Below, in pieces: positions 34,299 to 39,677 of a DNA stretch of 64,000 nt. The notes beneath the pieces were generated by a model. That model saw only the letters and a list, made by a program, of their open reading frames with translations, did no database searches and was not told the origin of the DNA. Where the stretch lies: contig NZ_QVFV01000007.1 of assembly GCF_004212215.1 (NCBI RefSeq), positions 1-64,000 on the forward strand, in the 5' to 3' direction. The DNA is from Leptolyngbya iicbica LK. Its GTDB lineage: Bacteria; Cyanobacteriota; Cyanobacteriia; Phormidesmidales; Phormidesmidaceae. How positions within the stretch are numbered: position 1 is the first letter of the stretch; every line of letters starts with the position of its first letter. The translations under genes and the position numbers were made by a program.

Positions 34299-37200
34299 TT
34301 AATCATCATCAGCATTTTGCTCGGGCGCAGGCGCCTGTAGTGGGCAGTCATCAAGTCGTCTTTCAGAGTTAGATCCTTCAGCCACCTGCTCTGCGATTGC
34401 AAGGACAGGATAATCACTGCACTGATATATAGGAGCTAACGGAAACACCTTTTCTAATCCTTCAGTTTTTTCAATAGCATCACGAGTCAGTTCTGCTCGA
34501 TTACAAGTAGCATTACCGGATAAACATGCTCTCAGCTTATCTCGATACTTTTTTGCAAGGGCAAGTCTGGGATTGATATCGAGTGCTTTATCAAAGGCTT
34601 CTAATGCTAGGGGCCATTCTCTGTCACTAAAAATTAAGTGGATAAAACCTAGTGACATAAACGCGTTACTATTATCGAGAAAATCACCATTATTATAAAG
34701 TTTATCGGCATCTCTATAATTTCCTCCACGAGCATTAACAACAGCTAAGTTGTAGTTTAAGCTGTTTGCCTTCAAGTCTATTAAATTAGATTTCTCGATT
34801 GCTTTTTCTAGTAGCGAGATTGACAACTCGAATTCTTCTTGGCCATATTCCTTAGCCTGAAATAAAAGGAATGCTAATGTTCCCAAGATAGGAATATCCT
34901 CATCAGAAAGCTCCTCAGCCGGCATGTCCATATATTGTTGGATTGCTCTTTCATGGGCATTGTTGTAGCGGATGCCTTCTAAAGGACTTAGTTCTCCCGT
35001 CTGATTTGTTTGTTCTACTTGTTCCATATTTTGAGCGAGGCCGAGATAGAAAAAAGTTTGTGGTAGCACATTGACCTCATCATTTTCTTCTAAAAGTGAT
35101 TGATCATTGCTGGAACTTGTAGCATTAACTGCAGTCTGAAAATTCTCGATTGCAGATTCAAGAAACTCTTCCTTGGTACTATCTGACTTGCCAATCCATT
35201 GAATAATTCGTGCCTGCCCTTGTCGGACAAAGAGAATAGGCAATATATCATTGTCAACATCAATGTTTTTGTTTTCTATCTGTTCAATCGCTGTCTCACA
35301 TGCAGTGATACGTCTACCTGCTAAGGAATCTACTTCAAGATCAATTAAATTATCTCCATATGCTTTAGGAGCTTTGACTAACCCTTGGCACAGGTTTAAA
35401 TTTTCACGAAAAGCCTGATAAGTTTGAGTTCTCTCATATAGCTTGAAAGCCGCGAAGCCAGTGAGTCCCAAAAGAGCAAAAATGCCGGTACCTAGCATAA
35501 AAGCATGATGCCTTTTGAGGCTGAGCAGGCCTCGATTTTTACGTCTAGGAAACTTTTCGAGTTCGTGAAGATCTGTCAGAATTTCATCAATATCCCTGTA
35601 GCGACTACTAAGTTTATGACTTACCATTCGATCAATCACATTTGCAAACTCAGACCGAATGTCAACCATTGGTTGATTGGAGACGCTGTAACGCCAGATC
35701 ACTTCTCGAGTTTTGCGATCGATGTTCAGTTCACACGGATAATTGCCGGTAAGAGCTTGAATTGCAATCATGCCAAGGGCATAAATATCTCGCTGTTCAT
35801 CTGACCATTCGCTAATCTCTTCAGGAGGGTAGTAATCCAAAGTCCAAGAATCCTCAGATAAATCTCTCCTCTGCTCTAGATCAACCAATGACATGATTTC
35901 CTGAAGAATTCCGAAATCAATCAAGACCAGACTTTTGTCTATTTGCTTGCGCCGAATATTTGATGGTTTAAGATTGAGATGTGCTAAGCCTTGATGGTGA
36001 ATGAAACCTAAAACCTTGCAAATATCAATCAAAAAATCAATGACTTTACCTTCTTCCCATCTTTTATAAGGTGCTATCTCTGCATCTAAGTTATTACCTT
36101 CTACGAAATCTTGAACAATATAGAATTCGCCTTCCTCCTCAAAGAAAGCAATTAAGTTCGGTATTTTTTCGTGGCCCCTAATTTTCTCGAAATCTTTCAA
36201 CTTGCTGTTGAATAAATCCTTAATGTGTTCTAAGAGGTCTAAATTATTTGTGATTGGAGTGAGATGCTTGATGATATACTGAGGCTTGCCTGCCAAGTCT
36301 AAATCGCGTACTAGATATGCCTTGATTGGACTGTCACTTGAAAGCTTACTGACGACTTCATATCTTTTACGAATGATGCGTCGATTTTGTGCTTCTGTCA
36401 GAACCCGCTGTACCCAATCTCCATTAAATAAATCAAGATATATGTCGTGGGCAATGGCAAGTCTCTTATCTATAACTTCTAGAATTCCTAATTCCAGAAA
36501 TATCTGTGAGTTAGCAGCCTCTTCATCGGGTACCCATTTCCCAGTTAGGATCTTTTTATATTGTGATAGCGTATCAATACATTTCCCATCTTCCAGCAAT
36601 AAGTTGGCTAGACTACTTCTAATGAAATCGTGATCTTCTGGATTGATTTCTTTGCCTAGGAGCCAATCTAATGCTTCACGAAGTGCTTTTCCCCTAAGCA
36701 AGCGTGAATCATCCTCATAGGACGAGCCCAACCAAGCTTTGAGCGATTCTGCGTAGGGGCGAATCTTCTTTAGTTCTTCACTTACCAACTCCGAACTAAA
36801 GACTTCTTTGTAAATAGGGTTATAAACTTTTAGATAACCGGCTTGTTTAACCACTAAGCCGGATAGTCTTAGCTCTACTTGTTCTGGACTATCATCGGCA
36901 TCAACATATCCCTGCTCTAGAATCTGTTGATAAACTCCTAGCAGTTTGCCTCTAAACTGTTCTTCTTTACTCAGAAATCGTTGTTGAATAGTTCTAAGAT
37001 GAATAGGTTCATCTTGTGATTCCCAATTCGATATGACTTTGGCGTGGACAATTTTGTAAACTAATTCTGTCTCTTGGTTTGCTGGAATCGTGAAATTGCT
37101 CTTATGAATTAACAGACAGATTTTCTGAGTAAGGAAAGGCTGTCCTTCTGTGAAATCTAAAATCCTTTCTAAAACAGCTTGAGGGTTTTGGGCTTTTGCT

Positions 37201-37874
37201 GAGAGTCCCGGAATTAGAGGTTGAGCTTCGTCAGCACTAAATCCTGTTAATTCAATAGCTCGGCCAACATTGAAAGGAGTCCGCCGTTTGTCTTGAATGA
37301 GATCAGAAGGTGTAGCGACACCCATCAAGGCAAAGGTCAGCCTATTATACTTAGGTTGATCAGCCCTTCGGTTATAACAATCTCGAATGGCAGCAAAGAA
37401 ATCGCCTGCATCAAAGTCAAGGCTTAGGACGCTGTCAATTTCGTCAATAAAAATGACGATATTGTTTTTTAATTTTTCTAGCAAGACTTGATCAATGAAA
37501 TTTTCAAATCTTTGGACAGGCGATATTAGCCCTTGGCTTTCCCACCAGACTTGCCAATTGTCTAGATTCATTTCCTGCAAGTTATTCACGATGCTATCAA
37601 CTACACCAGCGTAAAGCTGGTCAGAGGTGATATCGCGTGTTCCAATTGACGTTATGTCTATTGAAGTACAAGAAACCCCAGCTTCTCTTAAACGCTGCAT
37701 TGTGCGTACTCTTAAGCTTGACTTACCCATTTGTCGGGCATTAAGTACGTAACAAAATTCTCCAGCGATTAAACTTTCATAAAGTCTTTGGTCTGCTTGG
37801 CGCTCGACGTATGAAGGAGCATTGATCGGCAAGGTGCCGCCCAAGTGATATTCGTAAGATGACGATGTACTCAT
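34299..37874 (-). CDS. AAA_35 NTPase-pseudokinase-membrane-repeat protein
   Basis: A 1191-residue protein. Residues 1-360 are an AAA-like (AAA_35) signalling ATPase: Walker A ARQMGKSS (46-53), Walker B IFIDEID (141-147) and the winged-helix end [13 protein letters not shown] helical region follows (about 370-500). A protein-kinase-like domain (about 505-775) has the Lys (K536), DFG (D653) and PPEE, but the catalytic loop reads HLNLKPSN, with Asn634 replacing the catalytic Asp of HRD, and no glycine-rich loop is evident. It is probably a pseudokinase. One membrane helix (790-812) follows; then a 375-residue helical-repeat tail with several cysteines, predicted outside the cytoplasm. The start overlaps the stop of the preceding AAA_35-HTH gene by 4 bp (ATGA), so the two are translationally coupled. 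Composition is visibly AT-richer than the neighbours. Confidence 0.87.
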
Positions 37875-39259
37875 TGGTTATTCCCTAGACGATCTCGAAA
37901 ATAAGTCCGATATAAGTTACACAAGGGGACGATAGAGTTCTTTCGGAGTTTCACCAGTCCCATGCTTTTGAGCTTGAAGGCAATCGAGGACTCTACTCTG
38001 ATTGGCCCATTCGCTGAAACAACCTCTCTCATGGCCTTCATCAGCGCTTGATTTTGTTGCAAGTTAATTAAATGCCGACGTAGATGGTCTTGATATGGCC
38101 CCTCTTCAGTCGGCGAAATTTCAACAAACTCTTTGATGCTCAAACGGCTCCTAGCCAATTCATACAATGCTACTCGGACTAAATAAGGATGGCCAGCAAC
38201 CATAGCTCTTAACTCTTGTAAGGGAGAATAATTACTGTAGTTACTCCACTCTGCTGCCCAATCTACACCATGCCGACTGGCTAAATCGACTATCTGTTCG
38301 TCTTTGAACTCAGGCAGTTCAATGGCTAATCCAACATTGAAAGGAGATTGATTCACGTCTAGAGGAACATACACCTCTTGTGAGTGAACAATGACAAGCC
38401 GTAATTTTTCCAATGTGGGATCAATCTTCGCTTCTTCATGCCAGGACCGGAGTAAGCCAAAGAAATCACTGGCAATTTGCGGACACTCAAACAACACATC
38501 GACTTCGTCCAGACCCAATACTAAGGGGGTAGTCAAATTCTCCAGGATGTACTCTTGCAGATAATCTCGGCATTTGCTTTTACTACCTAAGGTTGTCATC
38601 CATTCATCTGAAAGATTTTCTAAACCCTCATCCATTTTCAAGCGATTGGCAATGCGGGCACAAAGCCAGTACAGAAAACGATCTAGGCTCTGCAGTAAGT
38701 CGCTATCAACCTCTTGCAAAGATATAAATGCGGTTTGGCTTCCAGAATGCTTGGCGGAATTGAGAATTCTCGACATCAGAGAGGTTTTACCCATCTGCCG
38801 AGGAGCTTTGATGCGGATTAAAGCTCCTGCCCTCTGAATAGCTCTATAGCAATCAGTCTCGATGGGAAGACGTTCAACATAAAAAGACGAGTTGATAGGA
38901 ACTTGTCCTTCGGGAACTTCTAAGGTAAGAGGAGACTGCAAAGGCTCTTGCACTAATGGATCACTATTTTTCTTGCTGATTTTCTTGCTGAACAGCCTAT
39001 TAGTCTTGTCTTCGGCATTAGTGACATCAACAATACTAAGGCCAAGCACTTTACAGATTGCGATCGCATTCTCTCGACTAACATTTTCCTGGTTAAAGAA
39101 ACGCTGCACAGTCTTGGGACTGATAGACGCTTCTTCAGCAATAAATTCATAAGATAATATGCCGCCGTATTGCTTACGTCGGGTAACTTTTGCCTGCTCA
39201 AGTAGTTGCACTCCTATTTTTGTTGCACATACACCGCGACTTGCTCCACCGGTAGACAT
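37871..39259 (-). CDS. HTH-AAA_35 NTPase (upstream partner)
   Basis: A 462-residue protein. Residues about 35-78 form a helix-turn-helix ([19 protein letters not shown], then [12 protein letters not shown]), resembling Cro/XRE-type. A charged linker follows. Residues about 112-460 are an AAA_35 ATPase with Walker [10 protein letters not shown] (152-160) and Walker [13 protein letters not shown] (247-258). The C-terminal winged-helix part ([33 protein letters not shown]) ends the AAA_35 module. Such ATPases act as signal-controlled switches. The HTH suggests direct control of promoter DNA, perhaps its own: a phased inverted-repeat site lies 29-68 bp upstream of the start. It shares an ATGA overlap with the pseudokinase partner. 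AT-rich compared with the surrounding genes. Confidence 0.85.
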
Positions 39260-39287
39260 ATCGCATCCCTTGCTTAGATTCCATTGG

Positions 39288-39327
39288 GACAGTTGTGGAC
39301 ACTTCTCAACTGTCCTTGAGTGTCTTG
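39288..39327. promoter_or_regulatory. Phased inverted-repeat operator upstream of the HTH-AAA_35 gene
   Basis: Four 10-bp blocks in register: GGACAGTTGT (39288), GGACACTTCT (39298), CAACTGTCCT (39308) and TGAGTGTCTT (39318). The last two are reverse-complement versions of the first two, giving two interlocked dyads, GGACAGTTG/CAACTGTCC and GACACT/AGTGTC, each offset by one helical turn. Located in the divergent promoter, it is a strong candidate for cooperative binding by the neighbouring HTH protein. Confidence 0.65.
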
Positions 39328-39392
39328 GGCATTCCCCTTAGTTTGAGCTTAGTTGCGAACTAGAGCAATGTCACTGCATATGGAGTAAACCC

Positions 39393-39677
39393 ATGTATAA
39401 AACCTTCTTCAATCAGTCCCAGCAAAATTTCGGGATCGAACAGCAGACCGTGGCATCGAGTAAGCCTGCTTTGTCTGAGTCAGGAGCTTGGGCTAATGGC
39501 ACTGGTTATAGCCCCGTTGAGATTATCTTGGCTATTTCTGTACTGATTGGCTCACTCGCGGGACTCATCCGTGTGCTTATTCCGGTAATGATGCAGTCAG
39601 GGCATGCATCAATGCTCTCTGGCAGCCCAAGCGAAGTCTTAAAACTGAATTCGCAGAATGAAGCCAAAGATCATTAA
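39393..39677 (+). CDS. Small single-span membrane protein divergent to the AAA_35 operon
   Basis: A 94-residue protein. The N-terminal 45 residues are polar with Gln/Asn/Ser; one or two hydrophobic segments follow (about 44-72, PVEIILAISVLIGSLAGLIRVLIPVMM); the tail is polar. No signal peptide. A GGAG ribosome site lies 7 nt before the ATG, so I consider it real. The shared promoter and operator region tie it to the AAA_35 pair. It could be an effector, sensor or unrelated; unknown. Confidence 0.6.
   Translation: MYKTFFNQSQQNFGIEQQTVASSKPALSESGAWANGTGYSPVEIILAISVLIGSLAGLIRVLIPVMMQSGHASMLSGSPSEVLKLNSQNEAKDH

Follow-up and report, generated by a model that had tools for sequence, protein, structure and literature searches.

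Phased half-sites between an HTH-AAA_35 gene and a divergent small membrane-protein gene in Leptolyngbya iicbica LK: a putative operator that recurs with the same kind of HTH

The window analysed here, a stretch of 64,000 nucleotides from Leptolyngbya iicbica LK (contig NZ_QVFV01000007.1), contains two neighbouring genes for AAA_35 proteins and, across a short intergenic region, a divergent gene for a small membrane protein (Table 1). In the regulator-like protein next to the intergenic region, AAA_35 (PF14516) is matched at E 4.7e-135 over positions 2-330 of 331, that is, as a whole domain, and Pfam found no sensor repeats after it; the N-terminal HTH scores 22.3 bits with HTH_3 (E 1.4e-4), just below the Pfam cut-off of 23, and the HTH of a relative, G280, scores 29.1 bits, above the cut-off. 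Compared with the PDB, the HTH profile matched LacI, PezA, CI and other chains, all at E 0.007 or weaker, and the AAA_35 profile gave weak RecA/ORC matches only. The two AAA_35 genes probably form one operon. The product of the second combines AAA_35 with a PD-T4-6-like kinase and a long C-terminal region; its match with the PD-T4-6 models of PADLOC (best E 2.9e-63) is confined to the kinase region. The 94-aa ORF on the other side is without a match at E <= 0.1 in Pfam and NCBIfam and at E <= 0.001 in PADLOC; with the HTH-AAA_35 protein likewise matching no PADLOC model at E <= 0.001, neither of the two is placed in known anti-phage defence.

Table 1. Genes and half-sites at the locus (positions in the window)
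Feature	Position	Strand
Second AAA_35 protein with Ser/Thr-kinase domain, 1191 aa; 4-bp overlap with the HTH gene	34299..37874	-
HTH-AAA_35 regulator, 462 aa; Cro/C1-like HTH at about residues 1-80, AAA_35 at 116-455	37871..39259	-
Putative operator: four GGACA(S)TT half-sites, 2 direct then 2 inverted, 10-bp phase	39287..39325	.
Half-site 1, GGACAGTT	39287-39294	+
Half-site 2, GGACACTT	39297-39304	+
Half-site 3, + strand AACTGTCC, reverse complement GGACAGTT	39308-39315	-
Half-site 4 (degenerate), + strand GAGTGTCT, reverse complement AGACACTC	39318-39325	-
Small divergently encoded protein of 94 aa; a single hydrophobic segment at 45-63, with the GYSPVEIILA motif of a conserved family of small TM proteins	39393..39677	+

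The repeated half-sites adjoin the start of the regulator's own gene, 27 bp from its ATG and 67 bp from that of the small gene. We scored the intergenic region without supervision, as four mutually similar 8-mers forming a direct pair and an inverted pair, each with 10-bp spacing and the gap left free, and the score of 28/32 was reached by none of 2000 dinucleotide shuffles (mean 22.3, maximum 27). The single half-site GGACASTT is unremarkable in the window, with 5 copies found vs 3.3 expected, and the unusual thing is the arrangement of the half-sites, not any one of them. The four 10-bp-phased half-sites of the original prediction are thus present and nonrandom, with the correction that its coordinates were one base too high. 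The two interlocked dyads that it described can also be recognised by sequence flavour, with centres at 39301 and 39311; the arrangement has a second description, however, as the GGAC/GTCC cores start at offsets 0, 10, 25 and 35 (the fourth core, GTCT, being one base off) and all four therefore also make one nested dyad centred on 39306. The longest dyad within the element is 9/9, formed by GGACAGTTG and CAACTGTCC, 11 nt apart. A sigma-70-like promoter scan gave one weak match on the + strand at 39253-39280, which is uninformative.

In the 5.7-Mb genome, a 29-mer spanning three half-sites matched with up to 3 mismatches only at this locus, in two overlapping registers, and its reversed-pattern control had 1 match; the two-half-site 18-mer, also with up to 3 mismatches, showed no genome-wide enrichment (22 matches vs 35 for the reversed control). 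A genome-wide regulon is ruled out for the strict element by its single locus in its own genome, the loose 18-mer not being enriched.

The HTH class of the window protein was followed in five loci: the window (G000), Halomicronema sp. CCY15110 (G003), Elainella saxicola E1 (G195), Phormidium tanganyikae FI6-MK23 (G286) and G280. The first four defined the HTH profile, and G280 was added for its profile match (E 2.1e-16) and its small TM gene. In all five loci, the small TM gene lies divergently on the opposite side of the element. The element itself is conserved with this HTH in other genomes, recurring clearly in G003, G195a and G286 and weakly in G280, across three families including that of the window. 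The unsupervised score of the four-site arrangement was reached by 0/200 shuffles in each of G003 and G286, and in G195a and G280 it is not unusual, being reached by 71/200 shuffles each. When the intergenic regions were aligned pairwise, six of the ten pairs beat all 200 shuffled pairs, and five of the six matches cover the half-sites (G003-G195a, over 81 nt, G195a-G280, G003-G280, G000-G003 and G000-G195a); the sixth, G195a-G286, has its significant match in the leader of the small gene, not in the half-sites, and the other four pairs (G000-G286, G000-G280, G003-G286 and G286-G280) are at chance level relative to 200 shuffled pairs. MAFFT places TxTC and TGTC, ten bases apart, in shared columns in all five intergenics. 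By reading, G003, G195a and G280 have three direct copies (at 0, 10 and 20) and two inverted ones (at 34 and 44), of which several are degenerate and those of G280 the most, the window having 2+2. Counted from the last direct copy, the inverted ones lie 14 and 24 bases on in the window, G003, G195a and G280 alike, and G286 is one base longer.

At the aligned element, the window-derived 18-mer has 2 mismatches in G003, 2 in G195a and 4 in G286; random 150-mers of the fetched loci reach up to 2 mismatches in 1/2000 cases and up to 4 in 33/2000, and the 22 small-TM intergenics of other HTH classes have 5-8. Its best match in G280 (4 mismatches) falls outside the aligned element, within which the best is 5, and G280 appears to be the weakest case of recurrence. 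Two further HTHs, of G299 (E 1e-25) and G275 (E 1.1e-16), match the HTH profile as well as or better than G280, and with these the element was not seen, the 18-mer having at least 5 mismatches, and no small TM gene was recognised by a pattern that also missed the known case of G280. Since it missed this known case, empty small-TM cells among the HTH relatives are weak evidence. Among HTH relatives without a recognised small TM gene, GGNCASTTAAG with up to 1 mismatch occurs upstream in 9/19 vs 12/1000 random 300-mers, the pattern having been chosen after viewing some loci and five of the nine carriers coming from one genus.

The element occurs with different NTPase parts. The NTPase fused to this HTH is AAA_35 in the window, nSTAND5+TPR in Halomicronema sp. 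CCY15110, an AAA match below the cut-off in Elainella saxicola and G280, and an interrupted gene in Phormidium. From their domain matches, the Halomicronema protein clearly differs from AAA_35, and the Elainella NTPase, which matches AAA_35 below the threshold (E 0.0014), may be a distant member of that family. In G286 (L073 / L125), the HTH-NTPase ORF stops after 145 aa beside ORFs that by eye are transposase-like, and the operator and the small TM gene remain.

Upstream of 29 AAA_35 homologues (L002-L030, with two regions, L018 and L020, of <90 bp), the 18-mer has 5-8 mismatches and nowhere better than 5. Ten further-checked AAA_35 genes, of which L206 is the same as L026 and L208 the same as L022, are all without the element, with 5-7 mismatches except for L210, whose best match of 4 falls inside its own GGTCAGTTAAG repeat; six of the ten (L202-L206 and L210) carry another HTH family. 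A second gene with the window-type HTH fused to a full AAA_35 was not found among the matches listed. With AAA_35 homologues lacking the element and carriers having other NTPases, it is ruled out as a property of AAA_35. Because AAA_35 genes with other HTHs are without it and relatives keep it with other NTPases, we take it to go with the HTH rather than with the combination "HTH-AAA_35". Three of the HTH-AAA_35 genes with another HTH (L204, L205 and L210), which lack a recognised small TM gene, have GTCAGTTAAG repeats of their own, about 10 or 20 bp apart (20 bp in L205).

It had been proposed to look for the element upstream of orthologous HTH-AAA_35 genes, and the outcome is divided: it recurs with the same kind of HTH and is absent both from other AAA_35 genes and from AAA_35 genes with other HTHs. 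The proposed coupling to the divergent small membrane gene is supported. With the element found again before HTHs of this kind, and the small gene opposite in five loci, the HTH, the operator and the small gene look like one unit, and the HTH, the putative operator and the TM gene appear to stay together while the NTPase part differs.

A search with the 94-aa sequence alone retrieved a homologue from the same genus (G003, E 3.6e-4), likewise divergent from an HTH gene. A three-member profile had matches in 23/291 class genomes, and a 19-member profile, built mostly from the matches of the former, in 39/388 genomes, members being picked by sequence and not by their neighbours. A G.SPTEIILA-like motif, common to the members, runs into their one hydrophobic segment; conservation is found around the TM segment, and the N-terminal part is variable. 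Judged by its sequence, the divergent small gene is a real, conserved gene. Relatives of the 94-aa ORF, six scanned with Pfam and four with NCBIfam, gave far-below-cut-off matches only (EAD5 at E 0.097, Spore_III_AE at E 0.053 and a SecE model at E 0.012). The family had no match on phages with one member (G155) as the query and none on plasmids with two (G155 and G175).

The 19-member profile search gave 45 rows, of which G219 and G088 were left out. Of the best 27 matches, 22 lie divergently next to an HTH-NTPase or HTH gene, the HTHs falling into several classes (the N-terminal or HTH classes of the partner proteins were assigned by eye), and those without a divergent HTH-NTPase are G225b, G195b, G320, G012 and G245; such a divergent gene is found in 5/16 of the weaker rows examined. 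Pfam scans of ten partner proteins revealed nSTAND5+TPR, NACHT with NCC-H (two), NB-ARC+TPR (three) and an HTH with AAA below the cut-off (two); the remaining two are a TRADD-like N-terminal domain with pentapeptide repeats and G058, which had no match at all. The small TM homologue of G012 (L062 / L043) has no HTH-NTPase and lies between a ParA-like gene and a sigma-factor-like ORF, both named by eye. In the small-gene leaders of G003, G195a, G286, G140 and G331a, which represent two HTH classes, a TCATCGGCA-like motif is located 30-42 nt upstream of the ATG, and several small-gene leaders of other HTH classes have a GAGTTC motif; these motifs may belong to a promoter or leader that the small TM genes have in common.

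At the equivalent intergenic place, other HTH classes have other repeats. In the class with an N-terminus like PPEEAIQVADEVLL, all six loci contain TTMCGAGAARNTCCGAAAAAGTA; allowing 2 mismatches, a search of 291 genomes found it at its six source loci (0 mismatches, by construction) and once elsewhere (2 mismatches), the reversed control giving 1, and in these genomes it is therefore a site specific to its locus and present once per genome. In 26 divergent intergenics taken together, direct repeats are strongest at spacings of 10 and 11 (mean z 1.29 and 0.85), all other spacings being at or below 0.51. The mean of the larger z at 10/11 bp is 1.89 in the 26 loci vs 0.63 in 150 controls (Mann-Whitney p 6.7e-7), a test that overstates independence because loci within one class share ancestry. 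As controls, 150 segments were taken from the 245 ordinary intergenic ones of the fetched loci, and the tests left out G234, with a 682-bp intergenic of tandem repeats, and loci without an HTH-NTPase. The TTMCGAGAARNTCCGAAAAAGTA site is a 10-bp direct repeat between the small TM gene and the NTPase gene in L136, L129, L138, L139, L132 and L133, followed by TATGAT in 4/6 and TATTAT in 1/6, and Pfam identified NB-ARC+TPR in one of the six NTPases. The divergent region of G234 (L128) holds a tandem array of a 26-bp unit beside 11-bp GTAGAA repeats.

We think it probable that the four half-sites are a dedicated operator by which a STAND-like HTH-NTPase controls its own gene and switches an output gene for a small membrane protein. 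Half-sites of the GGACA(S)TT kind would be read by the Cro-type HTH, and several protomers would assemble on the 10-bp-phased sites with cooperative binding. Once bound, they would control their own operon (HTH-AAA_35 and AAA_35-kinase) and, on the opposite side, the small TM gene. At rest, the HTH-NTPase would occupy the operator and limit both promoters, in the manner of a STAND transcription regulator; once a trigger is sensed, a change in the state or the oligomer of the NTPase would switch on the small membrane protein, which would be the output common to the modules. The binding by the HTH, the sign of the control, the trigger and the role of the TM protein as an effector, not an inhibitor or anchor, are what we infer, the small TM protein as the output being the least certain step; the wide range of proteins paired with the TM family argues against a specific inhibitor. 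Nucleotide-dependent oligomerisation and cooperative promoter binding are predicted from the four phased sites only. STAND-type features are found in the relatives (nSTAND5+TPR, NACHT and NB-ARC+TPR), the window protein itself being AAA_35 without sensor repeats. More tentatively, and as an idea that we hold possible but short of probable, the loci may represent an undescribed cyanobacterial family of "transcription-wired" immune-like switches: the one-TM protein would be the common output, driven by interchangeable sensor NTPases (AAA_35, NACHT, NB-ARC or nSTAND5) or TRADD-N proteins, each acting through an N-terminal HTH of its own and an operator that matches it, is specific to the locus and is helically phased, such that operator and HTH change together and sensors are swapped.

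The same arrangement could have other explanations. The HTH-NTPase may bind the operator and the small TM protein keep the NTPase inactive as its membrane anchor or inhibitor (cf. MalY on MalT), the operator merely balancing the partners. A divergent pairing suits a regulator and its inhibitor as well as a regulator and its target, and excerpts of PMC10427625 describe MalT as kept inactive by partner proteins; however, one and the same small TM family faces NACHT, NB-ARC, nSTAND5, AAA_35 and TRADD-N proteins, which is hard for a specific inhibitor, and it is the region around the TM segment, not the N-terminal part, that is conserved, and we hold this explanation to be somewhat unlikely. A plain autorepressor of toxin-antitoxin kind, with the HTH protein as antitoxin or repressor, the small TM peptide as a putative toxin and the NTPase activity incidental, would account for a small hydrophobic peptide next to an HTH protein and for the dedicated single operator, as well as for two partners, that of G137, which is TRADD-N with pentapeptide repeats and has no NTPase match, and that of G283, an ORF of 235 aa without a P-loop pattern (by a pattern check). 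Unlike antitoxins, however, eight of the ten scanned partners match NTPase families (two below the cut-off) and five have TPR or HEAT repeats, and such a system is unlikely.

The inverted repeat might alternatively act in RNA, as a hairpin of the leader transcript, an attenuator or a terminator. The + strand of the window does fold better than its shuffles (z -3.07), and a terminator-like match overlaps 39318-39334; nevertheless, the folding is not kept in the relatives (z -1.37 in G003, 0.35 in G195a, -1.12 in G286 and 0.47 in G280), whose half-site sequences and spacing are. The fold z-scores of these equivalent regions rule out the hairpin as a conserved feature, and an RNA-level role is highly improbable. 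Cyanobacterial promoters carry sites of global regulators, and the element could be the site of another such transcription factor, unrelated to the HTH-NTPase. It is, however, single-copy in the genome and tracks this HTH class across families, and other HTH classes have different repeats at that place, which makes another regulator very unlikely.

Bacterial STAND-type NTPases are mostly regarded as switches of death or nuclease type. At this locus, it is apparently a transcription factor that occupies the N-terminus, one with a dedicated operator that can be read and with a membrane protein as its conserved partner. If our preferred reading of a switching operator is right, the operator would tell which NTPase drives which promoter, and a reporter fused to the divergent promoter would reveal the triggers of the sensors. 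The locus also points to a small membrane-protein family whose tested members are without above-cut-off matches in Pfam, NCBIfam or PADLOC. With half-sites and tiny gene retained in related bacteria and the ATPase part different, sequence comparison suggests a reusable sensor-to-membrane switch.

The module is a variant of known HTH/STAND regulators. The kinase domain of the operon's second gene resembles the PD-T4-6 family of PADLOC (best E 2.9e-63), with the difference that the match covers the kinase region only and the kinase of the window is fused to AAA_35 and a long C-terminal region. The bacterial STAND/TRADD-N conflict systems, found mostly in multicellular prokaryotes, have the same kinds of NTPases and swappable terminal domains, including an ECF-like HTH, and their HTHs are classed among effector or adaptor domains; in the excerpts of PMC7159879 and PMC8195603, however, a small TM partner and a phased operator were not found described. 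Among the matches listed from the open-licence literature, seen in excerpts, neither a small TM partner for HTH-STAND proteins nor phased operators before their genes were described. BldC of Streptomyces binds direct repeats as cooperative multimers, but is, according to excerpts of PMC5859096, a MerR-like protein of 68 residues without an NTPase fusion. In MalT, a STAND activator of E. coli, NTPase-driven oligomerisation allows cooperative binding to several promoter sites (excerpts of PMC10427625), which makes it an experimentally tested precedent; the coupling of an NTPase to a DNA-binding domain and the several promoter sites are shared, the cooperativity here being predicted. However, the DNA-binding domain of MalT is C-terminal, whereas the window protein has an N-terminal HTH, AAA_35 and, by Pfam, no sensor repeats, and the same excerpts mention no autoregulated TM partner of MalT. 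In Streptomyces venezuelae, finally, the XRE-type HTH protein WhiJ9 binds three direct repeats of a 10-letter consensus in the intergenic region with iosA; it is required for the activation of iosA, and its loss raises its own transcript, consistent with autorepression (excerpts of PMC10294661). This precedent, too, has been tested by experiment. The likeness lies in an HTH protein, in repeats within an intergenic region shared with the neighbouring gene and in large paralogue families. In these excerpts, WhiJ is not described as an NTPase and the target, iosA, is another protein, whereas the element of the window has two direct and two inverted half-sites (or three and two) and its neighbour encodes a one-TM protein.
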